Virus record (IMG/VR): IMGVR_UViG_3300025154_000928 | Coordinates: 1-36,858 of that record | Strand: one strand, 5' to 3' | Source: a virus | DNA: 36,858 nt | In this document: piece after piece, positions 78 through 34,966 of the stretch | How the letters are laid out: the number at the start of each line of letters is the position of its first letter | How positions within the stretch are numbered: the first letter of the stretch is position 1 | Made by a program: the position numbers and the translations under genes | Notes under the pieces: generated by a model | The model's database searches: none | The model's input: the letters and a program-made list of their open reading frames with translations, nothing else | What the model was told of the DNA's origin: nothing

Positions 78-566
78 CTAAATTTTGGGATCATAGGTCG
101 AATAGCGCTCCTCCTGAGGCACTCGATGTATAAAGCCATAGTCTAAGGCCTCTAAACACCTTTTTAAAGTCCTTTCTAATGCTGGTATAATATGTGTCTC
201 ATAAAAAGCACGAGGTGACATCGAGTATTCAATTTTTATGATCTCCAACTCGCAGATATCCCCAGCGTCAAGTTTATCATTAGCCCAGAACCAACATGCG
301 GCTGCTATAGGCTCATGACGGCGATAGGCCCATTTTAACGCGCTCGCTCCTCTTCCATAAGGTAATGGGCTCGGATGAAAGATAAGCGTGCCTAATCGCG
401 GCTTATGCAGCTCTTCAAGGCTAACTTTGACTGTCAACAGTGGGGCAACGGCAAGATCCCATTCTTCGCCCTCCGTATAAGGTAGCCGGTGACCCATCTT
501 CTGGATTACCTCAAGGGATATTTTATAAGCCATCGTCTCCTGGCTCCCCAAAATATTAATGATCAT
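78..566 (-). CDS. truncated formyltransferase-fold protein
   Basis: This 162-aa protein carries the formyltransferase signature: residues 64-73 read HPSPLPYGRG, followed by DKLDAGDI at 97-104. These match the HPSLLPxxRG and LDxGD blocks of methionyl-tRNA and glycinamide-ribonucleotide formyltransferases. The His (H64) and Asp (D100) of the usual Asn-His-Asp catalytic set are present, but the Asn position is Ile62. The protein is much shorter than a ~310-aa Met-tRNA formyltransferase and lacks its C-terminal tRNA-binding domain. I chose the ATG at 566 because a perfect AGGAGGT lies at 577-571, 4 nt upstream; a start at 641 would overlap the previous gene by 86 bp. It overlaps the ABC-GNAT gene by 11 bp, so the two are probably translationally coupled. 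Its substrate is unknown. A role in DNA base modification is inferred from context only. Confidence 0.75.
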   Translation of the reverse strand: MIINILGSQETMAYKISLEVIQKMGHRLPYTEGEEWDLAVAPLLTVKVSLEELHKPRLGTLIFHPSPLPYGRGASALKWAYRRHEPIAAACWFWANDKLDAGDICELEIIKIEYSMSPRAFYETHIIPALERTLKRCLEALDYGFIHRVPQEERYSTYDPKI

Positions 567-1692
567 GGCCACCTCCTGTATACTCAAATCCCTGAACTGC
601 TCTAAAGTGGCCTCCAAAGCCTCCTGACTTAGGCTTTTCACCCCTGGCCACTGATGCTCTCCGAAGCGTATTAATCGATTTACCCTTGTTTGCTCCGATT
701 AACTTGCCGCTTACCTGGCGCCATTTAGGTGATTTTCTGAGGGCATTGCATAACTGAGGGTGAGAGGTATGGAACAATGTGGTATACTTATGGCCGTTTC
801 GGCTTTGGCCTTCCAGGTGAAGTCTGCATACCTCATTCAGAAAGGCCACACCCACACCGATACCCTGCCACTCCGGCATGACTACAAGCCTGGTGGCTCT
901 ATAGTGGCCACCTTGAAACATCGGACAAACGGCCAGATGTGCAACCGGTTCCGCTCCAACGGCCCCAATAAAATATTGAGCAGCGACCGGGTAAGGCAGA
1001 TCTAAATAATAATGCGGTTTAAAATAGCTCCATTTCGTTCCAGGAACTCGGTAAATGTCGAGTTGAATTTCCGGTCGCCGAAGGCAGTCACGGTTGAAAA
1101 ACCGCGCCTCTTTCGTGTCATAAATCCAGTCCGGCTGAAGCCATTCGATAATATCATAGTGACAGCTCAACAGAACCACCTGGGCGGAGGATCTTCTCCA
1201 CGATTTGGCAAAGGCAGCCGCGCCTACCCGGGCGATCTGTCGGTCAATAACACTGGTAAACTCATCAATTACCGTTACCTGGGGATGGTCACACATAAGC
1301 CTGGCCAGACCGGCCCGGAACTGCTCTCCATTACTAAGCACCTTGAAGGGCCGTAGCCATGATGGCACATCGCCAAGCCCAACGGCGGCCAGGGCACCGG
1401 TGACCTGGTTAAAGTCTCCTCCCGGTGCAATAGCATCGATGATCGGCTTATTCTGTGGCCAATCTGCATAGAGATCATGAATGGAAACATTTGGGAACAG
1501 GGACTTTCCGATGCTGGTCTTTCCTGATCCGGAAGGGCCTACAATAAGGCCAATCTTCCAGGGTAAGCCTTCAATAGGAAAATCGGCTGAGTGTGACCAA
1601 GTATATCCGTTTTCGGCGTTGAACAATGATTTAACGCGTGCAGCTCTATAGCTGTCAAAATTAACGCAGGAATGTTTAACTTCAATTTTCAT
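556..1692 (-). CDS. ABC-type ATPase fused to GNAT acetyltransferase domain (COG2401-like)
   Basis: This 378-aa protein has an N-terminal ABC ATPase: Walker A GPSGSGKT at 52-59, signature LSNGEQ at 119-124, Walker B VTVIDEF at 139-145 and an H-loop His at 178. There are no membrane segments, so it is not a transporter. The C-terminal half has a GNAT acetyl-CoA-binding loop, WQGIGVG at 275-281, in the context LVVMPEWQGIGVGVAF. The architecture matches the family described as an ABC-type ATPase fused to a predicted acetyltransferase. It lies at the far late end of the genome, where Mu carries mom, whose product is itself GNAT-like and modifies adenine in phage DNA. A function in DNA modification or anti-restriction is therefore plausible but inferred. 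Start and stop overlap both neighbours (ATGA upstream, 11 bp downstream), giving a tight three-gene operon. Confidence 0.85.
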   Translation of the reverse strand: MKIEVKHSCVNFDSYRAARVKSLFNAENGYTWSHSADFPIEGLPWKIGLIVGPSGSGKTSIGKSLFPNVSIHDLYADWPQNKPIIDAIAPGGDFNQVTGALAAVGLGDVPSWLRPFKVLSNGEQFRAGLARLMCDHPQVTVIDEFTSVIDRQIARVGAAAFAKSWRRSSAQVVLLSCHYDIIEWLQPDWIYDTKEARFFNRDCLRRPEIQLDIYRVPGTKWSYFKPHYYLDLPYPVAAQYFIGAVGAEPVAHLAVCPMFQGGHYRATRLVVMPEWQGIGVGVAFLNEVCRLHLEGQSRNGHKYTTLFHTSHPQLCNALRKSPKWRQVSGKLIGANKGKSINTLRRASVARGEKPKSGGFGGHFRAVQGFEYTGGGHDH

Positions 1693-3308: not shown

Positions 3309-4173
3309 TTGCTGTATAAGTTAAGGTTGCTGATAATGGATATCCTGTCGCAATGGTCATATACCCTGCAACACTGTAATAATTGCTCACTATGGTAGTA
3401 TAAGAGGCTGCTGCGTTTGCTTTGGCATAGCATGTACCAGGAACAATGTCAACCACTCCGGAGACGGCCTGAACGGCATCCTGGAACTTGCGCATGTTGA
3501 ATTTGCCATCCCATTCGATGCCGGCCAGGTAAGAGCTGATTGCATCTTCGACCGGGAACACGGCAATGTCCAGGATACTGCTGCCATCAGAATTCAGCAC
3601 CTGAGGGTCATAAATGATCTCAGCATATAGCTTGAGCAGGTCAGGATCTGTGCTGATCACCAGGACAGTCTCACCCGGAGGCTTTAAGTCGGTAATGTAC
3701 GCATTAAAGGCTGCCAGCTCTCCTGAGGTGAGCTTTACCGGTGTGGTACCGCTCAGCTTAGCTACCTTGATCCGGATCTGGCCATCCGATACCACTGCAG
3801 CTGCACGTTTGATGATCTGCTTGGAAGTATCAATAACGGCATACTGGAACTTATAACTGATATAGGCCAAGGCATCACCATACTGAAATAGCAGTGCTAT
3901 TTCCTGGTACCAGGGAAGGGTACCGAAGCGGGTGCTGGAGATCAGATCTTCTATCTCTGCCTTGAACATATCCTGGACCTTTTCAAACATCCATATACCA
4001 TATGCAATCAGCCACACCCACAGGCGCCATACGGCGATCTTGCTGGAGCTGCTGATGTCAGCTAAAAGATTTGAAAAGATGTCCGGGAAGGGGGTCAGCT
4101 GCGTGCGTAGTTTCGTCAGTGACTCCTTTTCGGTGATGATCTCATTGTAGATATCGTTCAGGTTGCGTGCCAT
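3301..4173 (-). CDS. baseplate J-like protein
   Basis: This 290-aa protein ends with the pattern typical of gpJ-like baseplate wedge proteins: a block around residues 165-195 (PPGETVLVISTDPDLLKLYA), then VEDAISSYLAGIEWDGKF and a closing segment with SGVVDIVPG. The N-terminal part (residues 1-110) is long and helical and holds a Trp-rich segment (VWRLWVWLIAYGIWMFE) conserved in Bacteroidota Mu-like phages as I remember them. In the contractile tail the product would form the wedge that triggers sheath contraction. It follows the small membrane protein gene by 3 nt and overlaps the next gene by 8 nt. Confidence 0.65.
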   Translation of the reverse strand: MARNLNDIYNEIITEKESLTKLRTQLTPFPDIFSNLLADISSSSKIAVWRLWVWLIAYGIWMFEKVQDMFKAEIEDLISSTRFGTLPWYQEIALLFQYGDALAYISYKFQYAVIDTSKQIIKRAAAVVSDGQIRIKVAKLSGTTPVKLTSGELAAFNAYITDLKPPGETVLVISTDPDLLKLYAEIIYDPQVLNSDGSSILDIAVFPVEDAISSYLAGIEWDGKFNMRKFQDAVQAVSGVVDIVPGTCYAKANAAASYTTIVSNYYSVAGYMTIATGYPLSATLTYTASV

Positions 4174-4462: not shown

Positions 4463-7400
4463 TCATCTGATCAGCGGCCCCAAGTATAAGTCCATGTAAT
4501 CAATATGAAGCAGATTGATGCCGGCACCCGAACCCGTATGCTCTTTTGTACATATAACTCCATGGCCCGTAGCACCAGTTGGGATATTTGTAGTCAAAAA
4601 ATCCGTCCATAAAACTGTTCCTGATTCATTAATTAAATAATAATCTACCTGGGTTGCCGTCGAATTGACAACTATTTTCAATCTATACCACGTGTTTAAA
4701 GCACACAGATAACTTGTTCCAGTCGTTGAACCCGATGAAGATGACATTGTTTTACCCCAGAGAACCGAATCTGGTCCTATTTCGAAATACACTCCATCAA
4801 CGGGAGCCGTTGAAGTTGTTGCATCATGAAATCCGAAACGAGTAGTGATAGAATCGAGTACCGAAAACCTAATTATCACATTAGTGATCTCCCCTCCATG
4901 GACACCTATGATTACATTTGATTCAGCATAAAATCGGTACCCACTATTTGTAGTAGTGCTCGATACAAACCTACCAATTCCAGGATGGTTTACCGATGTG
5001 CCGCCCGCCGGACCCCCAATGGTTCCACTTGCTACACCCGCGCCTGTCCATGGGTCATTTGCAGATGGTCCGTAATATAACCAATCGGCATAATAAAACG
5101 GTCTTAACCTAAAATTTTCCATCCAAGTTACAGGACTGGTCATATTAAGATCTTCTATTGTGGCAACATCAACATTATTTAGATTGAAATTGGCCAGATC
5201 TAAATCGTCATCTGCGGTATTCATAAAATCGTGGATGACATAAAGGTTTGTCGGTTCTTTATTTGAAAAGAGATCCGATATGCTTGTATTTTCCCAATTA
5301 CCAACGGTTGCATTCGTCACTACACCAAAGTTTGTGACCAATGGGTAAGCACCGGTGCCGGTTGCATACACGCTACCGATTTCAAAAACATCGATAGTAT
5401 CTCTCACATATATTGCCTGGCTGACGGATTCCGTATTATTTATTACAAGGTTGCCGATTCTGAAATAATCAATATCAGCACCTAAATCGGCAATTTTTGA
5501 TTTTACTGAATTGGCATGCCAATCGTCGATAACCAGGCTTTTAAGGTTTGCCCAGGTTTCCATGCAGTTGATATTGACATTATCCCCCTTCGTGATTAAT
5601 TTACCGATCCTGATATCAGGAGGGGATGTCATTGTGCCTGGCTGAACGTAGAGTGCTGCGCGGTTGCAACTTAATTTTTGAATATTAATAAAGGAAGTGG
5701 TGGTGGTATTCCAGACATAAAGCCCCCTTCCATTGTTCGTTTCGAGTGAACCTATTTGCAATGATTGATCAATAGATGTATTATTTAGACTTAAAAGATA
5801 ATTCGACTTGAATGCCTGGTCGTTGATCTGTACCACATTATCAATTGATGAATTATAGACAGGGTATGTGCTCAATAGTATTGCTATTGGTACATTGTAA
5901 CAAGTTAATCCATCAATGATGATATTTTCCAAGGTATCAACCGAATTCTGAACTGCAGTGTATGCATTATAAACCTGGCAATTTCTAATCGTAATATTTG
6001 AACATCTCAATGTCCATGCAGTATGGGCGATCAGACTGTTACTATATAATCCCCAGTAGGGAGAAACATTATAGTCCACGGTTATTGTGTCTGGAGGGAT
6101 ATTAGTGCCAGGTCTTTTGGCCTTAAAAAGGGTCTTATGGAAAAGCACTATATCATCAATGCTATATGCCACCCCATCATCCCAAAGGCCTTTATAATGA
6201 GTTGTATCCTGTTCAGGCATCCCGGCAATAGCAGTGCAATTTTCCCATATAACTGAACCAGTACTTTCATGGGCATCAAAAACAGAATAACCAAATGATG
6301 TTCCGGTCGTATTTGTTACAAGGCTATTCCATGGATATCCACCAGATCCGTCACCCCCATGGGCGACGGCATGCCGGCAATAGCAGAAATTACATCCATC
6401 AATAATTGGGTTAGTTGTAGCCCCATAAATACTGGCTCCATAACCAGTTCCTGTATAATAATCGTTAGAAGAGGAACAATGCAATAATTTGGGAGAATAG
6501 CAATCGTAGAATGCATAACTTGCATATTTTGCTTTCCCGACAAATACATTTTCACAAACAACATCTTGACATCGTCCGAAATAAATTCCAAATGACCAAT
6601 CGGCCTCACCGGTTTGAATAAGATTCAGATTCCTGATCTGTGGCTCAATGGGATTTACCTGCTGAGCTCTCACCACGTCTGCCACAAGGTATGAGTCAAA
6701 AAATGGTTGTGTAAAATAGACTATATTTCCAATAACCTTATTTACCTTCTTCATTTCCCCATTGTTATAAATGGCATCAACCTTATAATTGCTTATTATT
6801 TTCACTAAATCACCAGGTGTTAAATCCAACAAGGTCGACCCTAGATCTGCTTCCATAAAAAATGATCCTTTTGCAATATCAAGAGACAATGTGTCCCAGG
6901 ATCCGGCGCTACCTGAATATCTGATCATGTAGGCACAAGCCGAGTCAGTAGCCACAAATGTTGCATGATTTCCGTCTATGCTGATGCTGCCGTAAATATC
7001 TGCTGGCTGGGTGGCAAATGAATATGTCTTATTCCCAAATACAACTTTCTTCCCTGTTGTGATACCGGCAAATGCCATTAGCTTATTGAACTTAGCCGTC
7101 TGACTGCCAGATTCATTCAATCCAAACCAATCAGAATACACTTCATCCACTATCCAAGTTCCTGATAGCGTGACATTATCATCAAATATTTTTGTCAACC
7201 CGGCAACTAATCGGGTCGAATCGCCAACAAGATTAAATGTGCCGGTCAGCATACCGCCCTCAGAGACTTTTAATGTTGAGTTTCGAGGCATTGTTACAGT
7301 TGCTACGCTAACACTATATGTTCCGGCACTTAATTCAATAACTTGACTTGCGGTTGCTGCTGTTACCGCAGTGTAAAAGACGCTGTACTGTTCATTGTTT

Positions 7401-15851: not shown

Positions 15852-15923
15852 TTGCGGAAGCGGGACTCGAACCCACGACCTCCAGGGTATGAACCTGACG
15901 AGCTACCACTGCTCTATTCCGCG
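15852..15923 (-). tRNA. tRNA-Met(CAU), initiator-like
   Basis: The minus strand folds into a full cloverleaf of 72 nt. Acceptor G2-A7 (GCGGAA) pairs with TTCCGC, D-stem GAGC pairs with GCTC, the anticodon stem is TCAGG/CCTGG with loop TTCATAC (anticodon CAU), and the T-arm is GTGGG-TTCGAGT-CCCGC. Position 1 is C and position 72 is A, the unpaired C1:A72 that marks bacterial initiator tRNAs. The three G-C pairs of the initiator anticodon stem are reduced to two (A-U at 29:41). CCA is not encoded. It sits between the capsid gene and the lysis genes, co-oriented with both. Confidence 0.85.
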
Positions 15924-25442: not shown

Positions 25443-25838
25443 TCACAAATTGACGAAATCTAATTCCTGCCAGTTTCGTCGATCAGCCCAATCCCCACCC
25501 GTGTATTGCATCTTTATTACAAAATTCATTCTTATCATAGCGCCAAAGCTATTCTGACTATCAACATGTCCTTGAATAATGATGACGGAATCCTTTTCAA
25601 TTTTATATCCATCTTCCGCATATGGAAAGTCCGCAGTCGATGGGCTTTTTAGTTTATCTTTCACCATACTTTTGGCAATCTGCCAGCCCCTGGAATTTGT
25701 AACCTCAGATTTAACTATCTTTTCCTTATCATCGCCACCGCCACAGGTAGCTACTCCTACTACAATCCATATCAGCAAAATGCCAAAAATGATGCTGTAG
25801 GTAATCTTGTTAATTTTTCTTTTAGTTTGTGTGTCCAT
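25443..25838 (-). CDS. membrane-anchored hypothetical protein, possible moron
   Basis: This 131-aa protein has one N-terminal hydrophobic helix (KITYSIIFGILLIWIVVGVA) followed by TCGGGDDK, a weak lipobox-like site. An exported domain follows with VKDKLKSPSTADFPYAEDGY and VDSQNSFGAMIRMNFVIKMQ. Proteins with this KSPSTAxFP motif are widespread single-domain envelope proteins of unknown function. It is the last gene of the minus-strand operon. Role unknown; a lysogenic-conversion or host-envelope role is possible. Confidence 0.5.
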   Translation of the reverse strand: MDTQTKRKINKITYSIIFGILLIWIVVGVATCGGGDDKEKIVKSEVTNSRGWQIAKSMVKDKLKSPSTADFPYAEDGYKIEKDSVIIIQGHVDSQNSFGAMIRMNFVIKMQYTGGDWADRRNWQELDFVNL

Positions 25839-25854
25839 TGGATTAAATTTTTAG

Positions 25855-26181
25855 TTAGTAAATATAATTCTTTTTTTGTGTGAACTTAAACCTGTCGTTT
25901 TCCTCAATGATAACGGTACTGAAAGGAAAATCCTCTTCGGGGATTTGTTGAATAGCTTCTATTAATGCTACGGCGCCGGAAAATACAATATGCTTTACAT
26001 CATTTAATGATATTTGCATGTGTAAACATTTGCCTGTTCCCCTATCCGGAAATACTTTGCTATCCTCCAGTTTAAAATCATGCACTACGATTTCACGATT
26101 CAGGACCTTAGCCATCTTGATCTTGTCACCTTCAAATCCCTTCCTCTTGATTTCAATATTAAATTGGCTGAACTGGTTCAT
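25855..26181 (-). CDS. hypothetical protein downstream of the DGR reverse transcriptase
   Basis: This 108-aa protein has mixed alpha/beta sequence (KCLHMQISLNDVKHIVFSGA, then IPEEDFPFSTVIIEENDRFK). Its start overlaps the reverse transcriptase stop by 23 bp, so it is translationally linked to it. DGRs normally need a small accessory protein such as Avd, a helical basic barrel. This one is not obviously helical or strongly basic, so it is not an evident Avd. It may be an unrelated gene or a different accessory factor. Confidence 0.55.
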   Translation of the reverse strand: MNQFSQFNIEIKRKGFEGDKIKMAKVLNREIVVHDFKLEDSKVFPDRGTGKCLHMQISLNDVKHIVFSGAVALIEAIQQIPEEDFPFSTVIIEENDRFKFTQKKNYIY

Positions 26182-27127
26182 AATTTAGCTTTCTGAGTAA
26201 ATTAATGGAATTACAATGCTTTGCCCATCCGGCATAAGATGCAAGGCTCTGCCTGTTTTTGCCACTGGACACTGCCCTGGCAAAACTTTTCTTGATGCTT
26301 TTTCTTAGCCTGGTGTGCGAATGATAGAATACATATCCGACAAAATCAATACCTCTGGCATCAACTGGGAATACTTGGTAGTTTTCCTTTACGGTAAGGT
26401 GTAATTGATCCTTTAGATAGCTCCTGATCTCACCAAGCAGCCAGTGCAGATATGGCTTAGAATCTGATAAAATCACCAGGTCATCCGCATACCTGAAGTA
26501 ATGCCGGACACGCAGCTCTTCCTTTATCCAATGATCAAATCCGGTAAGGTAAAAGTTTGCAAAGTACTGGCTTAGATAATTGCCGATTGGCAGACCTTCA
26601 GCGCTGTCGATGATGCCATCGAGCAGCCAGAACAAATCATCATCCTTGATCTTACGACGTAACATCACCTTCAGTACCTGGTGATCCACGCTCGGGTAAA
26701 ATTTCTTGATGTCAAGCTTGAGACAATATCGGGTACCCTGATCATCTTTCAATGCCCGCCTGACCGCATTAGCCGCTGCGTGAATGCCTCTGCGCTTGAT
26801 ACAGCTATAAGTATCCGCTGTGAACATTGAGACGAAGACAGGTTCCAGGATAATCATGACAGCATGATGAACAATGCGGTCCGGAAAATAAGGCAGCCTG
26901 AAAATAAGCCTTTCTTTGGGCTCATGAATTGTGAAGGTCGTATAGGCTGATGTGGTGTAGGCTTTGTTAACCAGGCTTTGATGCAACTGCATAAGATTAC
27001 ACTCCCGGTTTCGGTCATGCTCGATCACACCCGGTTGTTTCAGTTTTCCTTTCCTGGCTATCTGATCGGCCAGCATCAGGTTATCAATGCTGCAAATCTG
27101 TTGATATAATTTGTTTTTTCTTTTCAT
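26159..27127 (-). CDS. diversity-generating retroelement reverse transcriptase
   Basis: This 322-aa reverse transcriptase has motif A YCLKLDIKKFYPSV (D139), motif B GLPIGNYLSQYFANFYL (residues 178-194) and the catalytic YADD at 213-216 in RYADDLVIL. The SQ after the IGN motif, in place of SP, is the diagnostic DGR variant. There is no maturase or endonuclease domain, which rules out a mobile group II intron. It reads the RNA of the template repeat just upstream (27229-27309) and makes adenine-mutagenised cDNA that replaces the variable repeats. Its ATG overlaps the TR-containing ORF by 4 bp. N-terminal residues 1-60 are helical and Lys-rich. Confidence 0.92.
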   Translation of the reverse strand: MKRKNKLYQQICSIDNLMLADQIARKGKLKQPGVIEHDRNRECNLMQLHQSLVNKAYTTSAYTTFTIHEPKERLIFRLPYFPDRIVHHAVMIILEPVFVSMFTADTYSCIKRRGIHAAANAVRRALKDDQGTRYCLKLDIKKFYPSVDHQVLKVMLRRKIKDDDLFWLLDGIIDSAEGLPIGNYLSQYFANFYLTGFDHWIKEELRVRHYFRYADDLVILSDSKPYLHWLLGEIRSYLKDQLHLTVKENYQVFPVDARGIDFVGYVFYHSHTRLRKSIKKSFARAVSSGKNRQSLASYAGWAKHCNSINLLRKLNYEPVQPI

Positions 27128-27327
27128 GGCTTTGCATTCAAAAGGTCACGTTCCCCACAGGTACCAGCGCCCTCTATCACAATGTTATTTTTTGCCAAGC
27201 TGGCAAGGTCTACGCTGCAATCTTTTTCGCATAGGTGCGAACTGACATTCGTATTCGTATTCGTATAGTTGTAATTCGAATTATCGAACCTGAACCTGGA
27301 GGACAAAACTGACAGCTCACTCAGCAT
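27124..27327 (-). CDS. small ORF containing the DGR template repeat
   Basis: This is an open 67-codon frame from 27327 that encodes the template repeat as SSRFRFDNSNYNYTNTNTNV. It has the Asn-rich AAY-coded look expected of DGR templates, then LCEKDCSVDLASLAKNNIV. It overlaps the reverse transcriptase start by 4 bp (ATGA). It may be a true short protein or only the translated reading of the template RNA. The first residues and everything after the repeat do not resemble the target proteins, so it is not a truncated copy of them. Confidence 0.4.
   Translation of the reverse strand: MLSELSVLSSRFRFDNSNYNYTNTNTNVSSHLCEKDCSVDLASLAKNNIVIEGAGTCGERDLLNAKP
27229..27309 (-). repeat. DGR template repeat (TR)
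   Basis: This 81-bp block aligns without gaps to 27425-27505 (VR1) and, over its first 79 bp, to 27817-27895 (VR2). The plus strand of the TR holds 23 T residues (adenines on the coding strand). VR1 differs at 16 positions, all at those T residues, and the 58 other positions are identical. VR2 differs at 19 of the 23 plus a single other base. This adenine-specific pattern defines which copy is the template. Homology stops abruptly at both edges. Confidence 0.95.
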
Positions 27328-27343
27328 ACAACCTGTTTATTAA

Positions 27344-27748
27344 TTATTCCGAATAAAGAAAATAATCTTTGTACTCAGCCTCAAACTGCTTGGCTATGTA
27401 CATAGCTTTTTCGCTGGTGTCAGTGCAAAGGCGCGAACCGACAGCCGAATGCGCAGTCGTAAAGTAGTAACCCGAATAATCGAACCCGAACCCGGAGGAC
27501 AAAACCCAATACCATGGGTAATACTTGTACTGATTTACCTTGCTCCAGTCTGGTCTCCAGCCATTATTGATAGCCCTAAAAATGATTAGGAGTTTATAAT
27601 AAGCCAGCATGGGCTTATGGAATTCTTCAGGCACCTTTGCCAGGTGGGGAAGATGTTCAGGGTCGATGCCAAGAGTGGTGCAGGCATCCTGGAATGTTTT
27701 GATCGTGCGGTAATCGAACTGATCTTTCTTTGTTTTCTTTGTTGTCAT
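27344..27748 (-). CDS. DGR target protein 1 (variable protein)
   Basis: This 134-aa protein has a conserved N-terminal region (FQDACTTLGIDPEHLPHLAK), then AYYKLLIIFRAINNGWRPDW and YYPWYWVLSSGFGF. The variable segment ends in VGSRLC, and the C-terminus is a fixed helix (IAKQFEAEYKDYFLYSE). The variable repeat 27425-27505 covers roughly LSSGFGFDYSGYYFTTAHSA to SRLC. It is a paralogue of the next gene, with the same domain order. It has no signal peptide or membrane segment. I expect a C-type-lectin-like variable fold by analogy with other DGR targets. Its start overlaps the stop of target 2 (ATGA). Confidence 0.85.
   Translation of the reverse strand: MTTKKTKKDQFDYRTIKTFQDACTTLGIDPEHLPHLAKVPEEFHKPMLAYYKLLIIFRAINNGWRPDWSKVNQYKYYPWYWVLSSGFGFDYSGYYFTTAHSAVGSRLCTDTSEKAMYIAKQFEAEYKDYFLYSE
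27425..27505 (-). repeat. DGR variable repeat 1 (VR1)
   Basis: This 81-bp repeat aligns ungapped to the template repeat with 16 substitutions. Every one is at a template adenine (T on plus), and seven template adenines are unchanged. It lies inside target gene 1, about 27 codons from its end, so the gene has a constant C-terminal part after the variable segment. Confidence 0.95.
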
Positions 27749-28197
27749 AATAAAAATTGTTTGTATAAATCAATGAACTGAGTAGCGCAGTAATCTGACT
27801 GTTCTTTTGTTTTAAAGCAAAGGCGCGAACCGACAAACGTAGCCGTACCCATAAAGTAGCAAAGCGAAAGACCGAACCCGAACCCGGAGGACAAACGAAA
27901 CCATGGCCACCATTTCTTCTGTTCTGTATCATCCCAGTTCGGCGCCCATCCGTTGTTTATTGCCCTGGCAATAATTACCAGTTTTTTATACGCAACGACA
28001 TGGTCATCATCTGTAGCACCAAATAATGGAACATCAGGGCTTATTCCAAGATGGATACATGCATCATCGAATGACTTGATGTCTGTGTGTTTGAACTCTA
28101 CAAATGACTCAACGCCAAATGCATTCACAAGCTCTTTCTGAAACCATCCTGGGACTTCATTAAAAAGCCTTTTTGCTGTTTGTTTTTCGATTTTCAT
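27745..28197 (-). CDS. DGR target protein 2 (variable protein)
   Basis: This 150-aa paralogue of target 1 has an extra N-terminal segment (KIEKQTAKRLFNEVPGWFQK), then FDDACIHLGISPD, AYKKLVIIARAINNGWAPNW and KWWPWFRLSSGFGF. The variable segment GLSLCYFMGTATFVGSRLC follows, and the end is KTKEQSDYCATQFIDLYKQF. The Trp/Tyr-rich PWF strand and fixed FGF/GSRLC frame suggest a scaffold displaying ~12 variable residues. It is the first gene of the DGR block and overlaps target 1 by 4 bp. It is not linked to tail genes, so its ligand is unknown. Confidence 0.85.
   Translation of the reverse strand: MKIEKQTAKRLFNEVPGWFQKELVNAFGVESFVEFKHTDIKSFDDACIHLGISPDVPLFGATDDDHVVAYKKLVIIARAINNGWAPNWDDTEQKKWWPWFRLSSGFGFGLSLCYFMGTATFVGSRLCFKTKEQSDYCATQFIDLYKQFLL
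27817..27895 (-). repeat. DGR variable repeat 2 (VR2)
   Basis: This 79-bp block aligns ungapped to the template with 20 substitutions. Nineteen are at template adenines; one (plus-strand G to A at 27851, template 27263) is not. VR1 and VR2 share the same replacement at several positions (for example both C opposite template T at 27236, 27243, 27291 and 27297), which may reflect selection or common descent. Confidence 0.93.
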
Positions 28198-28209
28198 AAA
28201 TTAACTATT

Positions 28210-28470
28210 TTAGGGTTGGAATAAATTACAAACATGATTGTACCTGATGTCTGTGTTAACACAGTTTGACGTGCCGATATACTTACATTTCCAGTATCTG
28301 GCACCTTTGCCATATCCCTTCACTACACAATGCCTGCATAAGCCGCATCGCTCACCACTTCCACGTTCCGCCTTCCTGTAGTTATGAAATTTTGTCCACC
28401 GCCCCAGTATAGTTTCCTTACTGGATGGCTTATCGTTGACAGGGATATCTGTTCCAAATAAATCAGGCAT
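28210..28470 (-). CDS. Cys-rich small protein, probable zinc-binding
   Basis: This 86-aa protein has six cysteines in the C-terminal half: CGLCRHC, then KCKY, SNC and HVC near the end, a pattern that could bind one or two zinc ions. The first 40 residues are polar. It lies 12 bp upstream of target 2 in the same direction. I recognise similar Cys-rich proteins from Bacteroidota phages, without known function. Confidence 0.5.
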   Translation of the reverse strand: MPDLFGTDIPVNDKPSSKETILGRWTKFHNYRKAERGSGERCGLCRHCVVKGYGKGARYWKCKYIGTSNCVNTDIRYNHVCNLFQP

Positions 28471-32105: not shown

Positions 32106-32957
32106 TTAATTAGCTTGTGCTAACAATGAGTGTATCTTACGGTTCACACGGCGCAGATCGCTGTCGGAGTCTTCCATCACCTTGCGGATCTGCTGCTGAT
32201 CCTGAATGCCGTTAGCCATGCAGATGGCCATGATATCGCTGGTAGATGGCCCTGTCATTTCGATGAAGCGACGGGCGATCCTGGAATAGATCTCCTTGTA
32301 GCCTTTGCGGTTCTTGCGCAAGCCTGCCATGATCCGCTTTGCCAGGTGATCTGTAGCGATCAGGATGATGCCGCAATGATCTTCCAGCCTGTTGTATAGG
32401 GTGATAAAGAAATACATCACCGGATCGACCAGCTTGTCAGCTTCATCCAGGATGATCAGCGGACGGTCCTGAGACTTCAAAGTCCTTACCACTTCATTCA
32501 TCATGTCGTTCACGTTCAGCCCGGAGTGATCCCGGCCCATCGAGGAGAGCAGCTCCTGAAGAAATATCTTGCGGTTCCAAAAGTCAGCGCACTGGATGGC
32601 ATAAACTCTTTTATGCGATTCGGTATATAGCCTGATTGTATGGCTCTTTCCGGTACCGGCTTCGCCCGTGATGGCAAACACGTTGCTGTTATCCTGGGCA
32701 TCGGTCAATAGCTGGGTAAGCATCTTATAATCCCTGGTCTCAACGCTGGCCCATTCCTTCTTATTCAGGCGCAGGTGTGCGGCGATTCCTCTCCACATTT
32801 CCTCTGAAATCAAATCCCAGTTGCGGTTCATGATCTGGCTCACCGTTCCGTTTGAAATCTTCAAGGCAGTAGCGGCCTTATTCTGCGACCCCATCCGCTC
32901 AACAAATGCGGTCAAATGCTCAGTGATTAATCCCTTAGTAGTTTCTGCTGTTTCCAT
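32106..32957 (-). CDS. MuB-like transposition ATPase
   Basis: This 283-aa AAA+ ATPase has an N-terminal HTH (residues ~25-60, NKAATALKISNGTVSQIMNR), Walker A GEAGTGKS at 98-105, Walker B LIILDEADK with D171 E172, and a C-terminal MuB-type domain (SDSDLRRVNRKIHSLLAQ). MuB binds target DNA, delivers it to the transposase and gives target immunity. The order transposase then MuB is that of Mu A-B. Confidence 0.85.
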   Translation of the reverse strand: METAETTKGLITEHLTAFVERMGSQNKAATALKISNGTVSQIMNRNWDLISEEMWRGIAAHLRLNKKEWASVETRDYKMLTQLLTDAQDNSNVFAITGEAGTGKSHTIRLYTESHKRVYAIQCADFWNRKIFLQELLSSMGRDHSGLNVNDMMNEVVRTLKSQDRPLIILDEADKLVDPVMYFFITLYNRLEDHCGIILIATDHLAKRIMAGLRKNRKGYKEIYSRIARRFIEMTGPSTSDIMAICMANGIQDQQQIRKVMEDSDSDLRRVNRKIHSLLAQAN

Positions 32958-32968
32958 AGTTAGCTATA

Positions 32969-34966
32969 TTACATTAGTTTATAGATGTCGATTTCCTCAT
33001 TGTCATCCACCGGTACCGCGTTGCTGATGGCTTTATACACCTTGCCGATGGTCTTTGACTTTTGCTTGCCGATGCCCGGAACGCTGGCTGCTACCAGTCC
33101 GTAATCCTCCGGGTGCATCTTGAACTCGCGCATGATCTCCTCGATCTTATCTTTGCTCTTGATGATCTCTACTTTGTTGATGTGATTCACCTGGGTAATG
33201 AAGGAGGCTTCATCACCGGTCTGTTCCTGCTTGCCACGAGCAACGGTAACTTTTACCGTTGCCTCCGTGACAAAGCGCAGCCTGCCGGATCCGTCCTGGT
33301 CGTATAGCATCACCAGCGACATGTCGTCCGGGTCGTATTTTACATGAAACTTCTTATCGATATTCTTACGCAGCCATTCCACGTCAGGCACCCCGTCGCG
33401 GTAAACCATATAATCATGGCGCACCTTCTTCTCTGTAAAGCTCAGCCCGTAAGCCGACATCATAATAGGTCCCAGCCTGGTGATCCAGAAGATCTCCACC
33501 ATATCCCACATGTTGATCTTCACAGCTTGCGGATTGTGGCTTGTCTTGTACATCTCTATCCTGGGCTTGCCTGTAGCTGAATGTGTTCCCTGGTTCCATT
33601 CCGTGCGGCGCTCGGCATAGATTTTCTTCACCTGGTCAAGTGTAGGTAGATTGTTTTTGTTGGAGAGGATGAATTCACGGTTGGCACGGCTTTCCAGTTT
33701 CTTGGCCGTGATGTTCTGACCCGTGAAGAACCAGTCGCGCTTGAGATACTGTGACTGGTACCTGGAGAAAGCATTCTCAATGGTCTTGGATTTCCCGTTG
33801 TAAGGCTGAGTCTTGATAGCCAGATGGGCAATCTTATTCAGGAAATTTCCATTCTCGAGTTTCTTATGGCCTCCCTGGTTGTCGTAAGTCACCTGGTAAG
33901 GCTTATGGCCTGAAAACTGCAAGGCCATTTTATAAGCGGCATATTGTGCCTGATAATCTTCACTCTTGCTGATGTGATATCCCAAGAGCACTTCACTATA
34001 AGAGTCCATAACTTCATACACCATGCAGGTCTCGATCTTGCCTTCATTGTTCAGGTAGAAATAATTCAGTTTTGTTCCATCTGAATACCACAGGCTGTCA
34101 CGCATGGAGGGCAGTCGGGTGGAGTGCTGCATCGCAAATTTGTTCTTGGCATCAATGTGGCCGTAACGAACTCCCCACCACAGGTGTTTCACTTCGGGAT
34201 CAAACAGGAAGTTGCGCACGGTGGATACGCTTTGAAGCTGCTTCCAGCCACGTTGTTCAGCCTGTTGGTTATAAAGTTCCATGAGATGCTCCGGAGATGT
34301 GGCCTTCTCGATCATATTGGCCCAGCGGGCGAGCAGCCAGCGGCGTGATTCTTCGCTCAGCTTTTCAGTGTTGCGGTTGCCATAGCCTTTGTGTACCAGG
34401 CAGGAAAGTCCTTCCGTAAGATAGCGGTTCAGCTTCTCGCGCAGGCGCACGGGATGAGTAGGTAGCGTGTGTGGGAACAGGGTGCGGTCCAGGGTCTGGA
34501 GTTCTTCGGCCAATTCGGCCCACATGCCGGTGATGGAACCGCCACTGGCGCGGCGTGCACCTTTGAGCCTGTTAGCCATTTGGAAAATGGTGTTTAGAAT
34601 GTCGGCATTGGTGCAGTACTCTTCGATCGCGCCGTCGGGCAGCGATTCGCCGTTAGGCAAGCGATGTGAGGAAAAGAAATCAAGTGCGTCAGGGTGCTTT
34701 TCTATGGAGCGGGCTATGCCATTCTCCAGTGTGCGGCGCCGTGGATCCCACCCGAGCTGAGCAATGATCTTATCCATGTACCTGGACGGCACGCTCTCGA
34801 ATTCGATCAAAGCCGGAGTGTTGCGACAGGCACGCCGGACCACATGTATCCGCTTTCTTTTGGACAAATTCTTATAGTCGTATATACTCATCACCCCGTC
34901 TGGATTTTCCGGGCTGTTGATCAGCTCTGACCCGCTGACACATAGTTTATTCTGGTAGTATTCCAT
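32969..34966 (-). CDS. MuA-like DDE transposase
   Basis: This 665-aa protein has a D-D-E catalytic triad: D296 in YSDGTKLNYF, D362 in TYDNQGGHKK and E397 in SKTIENAFSR (spacing 65 and 34 residues). This is the rve-type core, followed by a MuA-type beta-barrel and C-terminal region. It ends with PVDDNEEIDIYKLM, probably a MuB-contact tail. The length equals Mu A (663 aa). It should bind the end repeats, cut and join them to target DNA, for both integration and replicative transposition. The ATG overlaps the HD gene stop by 1 bp (TAATG). Confidence 0.92.
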   Translation of the reverse strand: MEYYQNKLCVSGSELINSPENPDGVMSIYDYKNLSKRKRIHVVRRACRNTPALIEFESVPSRYMDKIIAQLGWDPRRRTLENGIARSIEKHPDALDFFSSHRLPNGESLPDGAIEEYCTNADILNTIFQMANRLKGARRASGGSITGMWAELAEELQTLDRTLFPHTLPTHPVRLREKLNRYLTEGLSCLVHKGYGNRNTEKLSEESRRWLLARWANMIEKATSPEHLMELYNQQAEQRGWKQLQSVSTVRNFLFDPEVKHLWWGVRYGHIDAKNKFAMQHSTRLPSMRDSLWYSDGTKLNYFYLNNEGKIETCMVYEVMDSYSEVLLGYHISKSEDYQAQYAAYKMALQFSGHKPYQVTYDNQGGHKKLENGNFLNKIAHLAIKTQPYNGKSKTIENAFSRYQSQYLKRDWFFTGQNITAKKLESRANREFILSNKNNLPTLDQVKKIYAERRTEWNQGTHSATGKPRIEMYKTSHNPQAVKINMWDMVEIFWITRLGPIMMSAYGLSFTEKKVRHDYMVYRDGVPDVEWLRKNIDKKFHVKYDPDDMSLVMLYDQDGSGRLRFVTEATVKVTVARGKQEQTGDEASFITQVNHINKVEIIKSKDKIEEIMREFKMHPEDYGLVAASVPGIGKQKSKTIGKVYKAISNAVPVDDNEEIDIYKLM

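Follow-up and report, generated by a model that had tools for sequence, protein, structure and literature searches.

In this study, positions 25855-28197 of the IMG/VR virus record IMGVR_UViG_3300025154_000928 were identified, with high confidence, as a complete diversity-generating retroelement (DGR) of a Mu-like phage, in which one template repeat (TR) feeds two tandem paralogous target genes, designated T1 and T2, each with its own variable repeat (VR1 and VR2). The whole record, 36,858 bases long and possibly incomplete, is referred to here as the window. This reading, already proposed in an initial annotation of the sequence, is supported by the pattern of TR-VR differences, the clade of the reverse TRANSCRIPTASE (RT) and the variation of the VRs in relatives. 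Moreover, a conserved accessory protein and a conserved folded RNA in the spacer between TR and RT, both of which the initial annotation had missed, set this element apart from the textbook DGR. The cassette is encoded on the minus strand in the order T2, T1, TR, spacer, RT and an open reading frame (ORF) of 108 amino acids (aa) (Table 1); T1 and T2, both matching phrog_11581, are paralogues that overlap by 4 bp. The phage was assigned to the Mu-like type by gene matches to transposition genes of the MuA/MuB type, and the cassette lies between transposition/replication genes on one side and packaging and head genes on the other.

Template and variable repeats

An independent repeat search recovered three 81-bp copies, TR, VR1 and VR2, ungapped and at the coordinates first assigned to them. 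VR1 differed from TR at 16 of 81 positions, and all 16 were among the 23 template adenines (hypergeometric p = 7e-12). Over 79 bp, VR2 showed 20 differences to TR, of which 19 lay at template adenines (p = 1e-13). The counts of the initial annotation were thereby reproduced.

IMG/VR was scanned with the window RT, which gave 338 relatives, of which 80 (67-76% identity) were kept; their repeats were located by a TR/VR finder written for this analysis, which penalises mismatches at bases other than adenine. In these relatives, the TR precedes the RT by about 90-145 nt, and the spacing of the VRs is nearly constant. Once near-duplicates had been removed, 58 of the IMG/VR loci had at least 1.2 kb of sequence upstream of the RT, and 57 of these carried two or three VRs; two tandem targets are thus the standard form of this lineage rather than a peculiarity of the window. 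A third target gene with a VR was observed upstream in the loci L002, L006-L008, L045, L067 and L079, at a distance of approximately 3.5 kb in L002.

The borders of the mutated segment were analyzed in 111 TR-VR pairs from the relatives, aligned at a common anchor. In the core of the repeat, a template adenine was replaced by any base, whereas at the borders it was replaced by one fixed base, namely at 0 (A>G, 109/111), +7 (A>G, 99/99) and +11 (A>T, 93/95) on the 3' side, and at -48 (A>G, 67/68) and -54/-55 (A>G, 48/50 at -54) on the 5' side. Five of the adenine differences in each window VR fall on these family-fixed positions. The adenine-specific pattern claimed initially is confirmed, but five must be subtracted from each of the raw counts, 16 and 19, to arrive at the random mutagenesis, which leaves about 11 differences in VR1 and about 14 in VR2. 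The fixed positions mark either the borders of the replaced segment or a protein constraint. Protein selection cannot explain the change at +11, because CTA and CTT both encode leucine, whereas the 5' border could equally reflect a constraint on the protein motif SSGFGF. At the sequence level, the 15-nt 3' element, with three fixed differences across the 111 pairs and one of them synonymous, reads as a counterpart of the initiation of mutagenic homing (IMH) pair IMH*/IMH of phage BPP-1.

Reverse transcriptase

The YADD motif and the DGR-specific motif IGNxxSQ reported by the initial annotation were both found in the RT, the latter as IGNYLSQ. The protein matched PF00078 (1.3e-15) and phrog_1423 (2.5e-123), and its best match among solved structures was 8ub7 (328 aa; E 8e-46), compared with 5e-17 for a group II intron RT. 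The RT of BPP-1 (bRT), which is also 328 aa long, is 35% identical to it. In a maximum-likelihood tree, the window RT grouped with the DGR RTs of crAss-like phages, ANMV-1, vir525 and BPP-1, with a support of 100/100 against three non-DGR RTs taken from Bacteroidota genomes, which places it inside the DGR clade.

Natural variation

Variation of the VRs at template adenines within a population, which the initial annotation had named as a check, was observed in near-identical relatives (L004-L009). The contigs L004 and L006-L009 stem from separate metagenomes and share 99.1-99.96% identity across several kilobases. Their three VRs contain 37 variable sites, of which 35 lie at template adenines, although adenine makes up about a quarter of the TR; outside the VRs, only 2 scattered variable sites were found once the contig-end clusters of L005 and L006 were set aside. 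These data indicate that the lineage is active in nature.

Several observations nevertheless weigh against an active and complete DGR in the window. VR2 bears one change at a base other than adenine, C>T. The pooled differences of the relatives (2265 of 2304 TR-VR mismatches, or 98%, at adenine) are not independent evidence, because the finder penalises other mismatches. An exact search with the spacer pattern found no near-identical contig of the window's own phage, and activity is established for the relatives only. Furthermore, a hairpin or cruciform like that behind the VR of BPP-1 was looked for in 130 VR flanks and rejected, the mean best stem being 3.96 against 3.81 in triplet-shuffled sequences. 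The contig L108 carries an accessory gene 99% identical to that of the window and ends before the TR.

The C>T change and the lack of near-identical relatives showing current change would also suit a cassette that was once functional and is now inactive in the window phage, its VR differences being old. However, the RT, accessory and target genes of the window are intact open frames with all motifs kept, the spacer RNA is intact and close relatives vary at present, which makes such decay very improbable. A complete DGR remains the favored reading of the cassette.

Spacer RNA

The spacer between TR and RT is a covarying structured RNA related to the Rfam family RT-17 and also present in the DGRs of crAss-like phages. 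In an alignment of 64 spacer sequences, RNAalifold predicted two elements: P1, a short hairpin, and P2, a longer stem whose internal loop, (G/A)GUA...GAA, is invariant. We take this loop to resemble the bulged-G (loop E) motif. Five pairs of P2 each include 11 to 31 sequences that have changed on both sides yet stay paired. Overall, 133 alignment cells stay paired through two-sided changes, compared with 31.5 in shuffles, and the covariation score was 0.462, compared with 0.188 in shuffled and at most 0.107 in slid alignments. A covariance model, R1, scored 117.6 bits at 27116-27242 (minus strand) of the window, which is itself a training sequence. Of 24 genome loci outside the training set, 22 gave an R1 match immediately before the RT (E 9e-7 or better); matches were weaker in the DGRs of crAss-like phages (E 3e-6 to 0.07) and in vir525 (0.05). 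The Rfam model of RT-17 (RF03020) matched the window with 34.9 bits (E 1.4e-4), under its gathering threshold of 40.4, and the crAss-like phage cr6_1 with 44.5 bits, above it. In another crAss-like phage, cr55_1 (L183, NC_055869), the annotated start of the RT reaches back into the spacer RNA (3917-4001); homology to other RTs sets in at 4001, which suggests that the N-terminus has probably been misannotated.

In the window, the TR also lies within an open frame, MLSELS...LLNAKP* (27130-27330, minus strand), which is in the same phase as the VRs and whose stop overlaps the RT start (ATGA), as expected if the TR were part of a coding gene. However, only 29 of 76 relatives have a frame that is open from TR start to RT start, the length of the spacer varies freely, and a coding TR was rejected as improbable in the extreme.

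Accessory protein

The 108-aa ORF encodes an accessory protein dedicated to the DGR, with a predicted oligonucleotide/oligosaccharide-binding fold (OB-fold). It stands directly behind the RT in 77 of the 80 loci selected by RT, whereas the window neighbours o131 (25443-25838) and o86 (28210-28470) occur in none of the 80. The mean column identity of the accessory family is 59%, compared with 28% for the targets. When bacterial genomes and IMG/VR were searched with the accessory protein alone, the loci recovered had a DGR RT immediately upstream if the contig extended that far; a few divergent loci, among them L097 and L107, were exceptions. The named genomes with the accessory gene belong to Bacteroidota (Prolixibacteraceae, Dyadobacter, Niastella, Pedobacter, Flavobacterium and others) and Ignavibacteria; the loci L089 and L090 represent related prophages of Dyadobacter sp. 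Leaf189 and Niastella caeni. In two archaeal viruses, ANMV-1 and vir525, a homologue likewise follows the RT immediately (hhalign E 9e-18 and 9e-19, respectively).

No match to the protein was found by sequence in Pfam, NCBIfam or PDB, and its sole family match was phrog_19665, of unknown function. The AlphaFold2 (AF2) model (predicted local distance difference test, pLDDT, 84.7) had mostly OB-folds as its structural neighbours in VIA-align, many of them binding single-stranded DNA (ssDNA), including SSB (3lgj, Z 5.5), Rim1 (6cqm, 5.4) and LEF-3 (7ypo, 5.1); the scores are modest (Z 4 to 6.3), which tells against the fold assignment. Such SSB-like neighbours would also fit a general phage ssDNA-binding protein that stands behind the RT by chance and is no part of the DGR. 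This is very unlikely, given that, with few exceptions, the loci recovered by the accessory protein alone have a DGR RT immediately upstream, that the other neighbouring genes are not conserved and that the linkage spans bacterial phages and two archaeal viruses.

As a dedicated DGR component, the predicted OB-fold protein may well stand in for Avd, binding single-stranded cDNA, the template RNA or the RT. A search with PF05635 and PF22296 found no Avd in the 36.9-kb record, which may itself be incomplete; the Avd of BPP-1, used as a positive control, was detected with 7e-36. As homologues of the accessory protein, BPP-1 bbp4 was rejected for lack of a match, and crAss gp060 was also rejected. 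The RTs of the crAss-like phages cr55_1 and LMMB have a C-terminal extension of approximately 90 aa (L183, 4970-5239, and L192, 2512-2793), which by eye resembles the accessory protein, and hhalign gave probabilities of 8% (E 0.004) and 0.1% for this similarity, which are not significant.

Proposed mechanism

Previous work has shown that the spacer of BPP-1 folds, recruits bRT-Avd and primes cDNA synthesis (PMC12875486), and by analogy the window spacer likely plays the same role in RT recruitment and priming. In such a scheme, the cassette from T2 to the accessory gene would be transcribed, and the folded spacer RNA behind the TR would recruit the RT and, as we infer, supply the primer. The RT would then copy the TR, misincorporating opposite adenine, and the cDNA would replace the core of VR1 or VR2, with the IMH*/IMH-like 15-nt element as its putative 3' limit.

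Target genes

AF2 predicts a mostly helical T2 in which the VR forms a hairpin of low confidence (pLDDT 88 overall and about 60 in the VR). The targets, considered as candidates for a C-type lectin fold around the VR, had no fold match in PDB, an absence that does not show a new fold, and their BFVD matches were uncharacterised phage proteins. In the relatives, the genes flanking the cassette upstream include those of phrog_846, ATPase, primase, ssDNA-annealing and transposition proteins, and those downstream include the genes of DNA methyltransferases and terminase; no tail-fibre family occurs among the commonest 25 flanking families on either side. Moreover, three phages, Versailles, LoVEphage and Dulem virus 41, carry target homologues with no RT close by, located amid recombination and replication genes. 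This setting argues against a tail role, and, since the cassette stands among replication and packaging genes, T1 and T2 are probably not classical tail fibres.

The two proteins might instead be virion receptor-binding proteins, as in BPP-1 and hankyphage, that are merely encoded away from the tail genes. In phage DGRs of clades 1, 4 and 6, the targets are mostly tail proteins (PMC8144416); hypervariable binding faces are well suited to receptors, and some cassettes adjoin head or packaging genes. In contrast, the flanking families and the three RT-less phages described above, together with the small size of the proteins (134-150 aa), speak against it, and we give this alternative an appreciable but less than even chance. 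T1 and T2 may be binding proteins that use the VR hairpin as their contact surface. A more speculative possibility, which we regard as rather unlikely, is that they are not virion parts but small intracellular proteins, diversified in pairs against a changing partner such as a host defence protein. If so, the DGR would serve counter-defence or host takeover rather than receptor binding.

Comparison with known systems

The window DGR resembles that of BPP-1 (mtd-avd-TR-brt) in its RT, in a TR placed shortly before the RT and followed by a structured spacer, in adenine-specific changes and in fixed TR/VR marks like IMH*/IMH. However, BPP-1 has one tail-fibre target and Avd, whereas the window has two small paralogous targets, no Avd that was found and an OB-fold-like protein behind the RT. 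Unlike in BPP-1, the VRs, here and in relatives, stop 72-81 nt short of the gene end, no hairpin is conserved behind them, and model R1 does not match the BPP-1 spacer.

Hankyphage is likewise a Mu-like phage of Bacteroidota, in its case Bacteroides, that carries a DGR (PMC6199706, PMC12135933), but it has a single VR at the C-terminus of a tail-fibre protein of approximately 2200 aa, as well as Avd. The DGRs of crAss-like phages (e.g., cr55_1 and LMMB) share RTs 49-58% identical to that of the window and the same spacer RNA; they differ in that a large tail-protein gene adjoins the RT and no adjacent copy of the accessory gene was recognised. In the archaeal virus ANMV-1, the accessory homologue directly follows the RT, whereas the target, adtA, has 446 aa and the spacer match of R1 is not significant (9.4 bits). 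In ANMV-1 (L181), a second pair of repeats, 6330-6445 and 1401-1516, shows 6 mismatches, all at adenines of the 6330-6445 copy; the other copy lies inside a gene annotated as capsid tail fiber, and this is possibly a second TR-VR pair. Rfam RT-17 RNAs neighbour an RT and share the hairpin and the UGGUA...GAA element with the window; the window score is below gathering, and the assignment to DGR spacers was made here.

The two-target system highlighted by the initial annotation is real but was overrated. About a seventh of DGRs have two or more VRs (PMC3521204), a Mu-like phage with a DGR was known (PMC6199706), and one TR serves two target genes in the nd4/nd12 tentaclins (PMC10743442) and in the Bacuni phages (PMC8143477). 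The nd4/nd12 targets are unrelated and those of Bacuni, which has Avd, are far apart, and in both systems they have C-lectin folds, whereas the targets of the window are tandem paralogues. As far as the literature searched shows, the OB-fold-like partner, the RT-17-type RNA as a DGR spacer and tandem paralogous targets in a replication/packaging setting are new, with priority not established: no RT-17 paper was found in that literature, no on-point paper joined DGR and OB-fold at the level of title and abstract, and prior descriptions of both are possible.

Other features of the window

The coordinates of the cassette and its phage context are listed in Table 1. A tRNA gene (15852-15923, minus strand; Rfam RF00005, 62 bits) lies inside the head/tail block beside the gene of the major head protein. 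At the left end of the record, a 378-aa protein of unknown function (556-1692; phrog_11143, 1e-141) and an overlapping formyltransferase-like ORF (78-641, minus strand) are possible cargo genes.

Table 1. Features of the DGR cassette and its phage context in the window.
Feature	Position	Strand	Basis or remark
T2, upstream target gene, 150 aa	27745..28197	-	VR2 in frame; phrog_11581 (function unknown), 1.4e-27
T1, downstream target gene, 134 aa	27344..27748	-	VR1 in frame; phrog_11581, 2e-29
VR2 (variable repeat in T2)	27817..27895	-	20 differences to TR, 19 at template A
VR1 (variable repeat in T1)	27425..27505	-	16 differences to TR, all at template A
TR (template repeat)	27229..27309	-	repeat search; most of the 80 relatives share its position relative to RT
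IMH*-like 3' end of TR, AGTTCGCACCTATGC	27229..27243	-	three fixed TR/VR differences in 111 pairs, one synonymous (CTA/CTT)
VR counterparts of the IMH*-like element, GGTTCGCGCCTTTGC	27425-27439 and 27817-27831	-	
TR-RT spacer, RT-17-like structured RNA	27128..27228	-	covariation (64 sequences), model R1, Rfam RF03020
Hairpin P1 (UUGCC...GGCAA)	27192..27206	-	covariation
Stem P2 with invariant internal loop (G/A)GUA...GAA	27142..27174	-	covariation; loop columns
DGR reverse transcriptase, 322 aa	26159..27127	-	motifs, PF00078, phrog_1423, tree
Dedicated accessory protein, 108 aa, predicted OB-fold	25855..26181	-	overlaps RT 3' end by 23 bp; linkage to RT
Mu-like transposase and DNA transposition protein (phage-type context)	32106..34966	-	phrog_310, 2.4e-68; phrog_296, 4.4e-53

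Conclusion

The features of this retroelement point to a class of DGRs with an OB-fold-like partner in the place of Avd and with a conserved, recognisable structure at the end of the template RNA. The class would be common to Bacteroidota phages, crAss-like phages (by the RNA) and archaeal viruses (by the accessory protein). If confirmed, it would explain the orphan Rfam family RT-17, provide a marker for finding DGRs where a contig holds no VR and offer a small, Avd-free system for the study of cDNA priming and integration. Moreover, it raises the question of the role that hypervariable proteins may have outside the phage tail.

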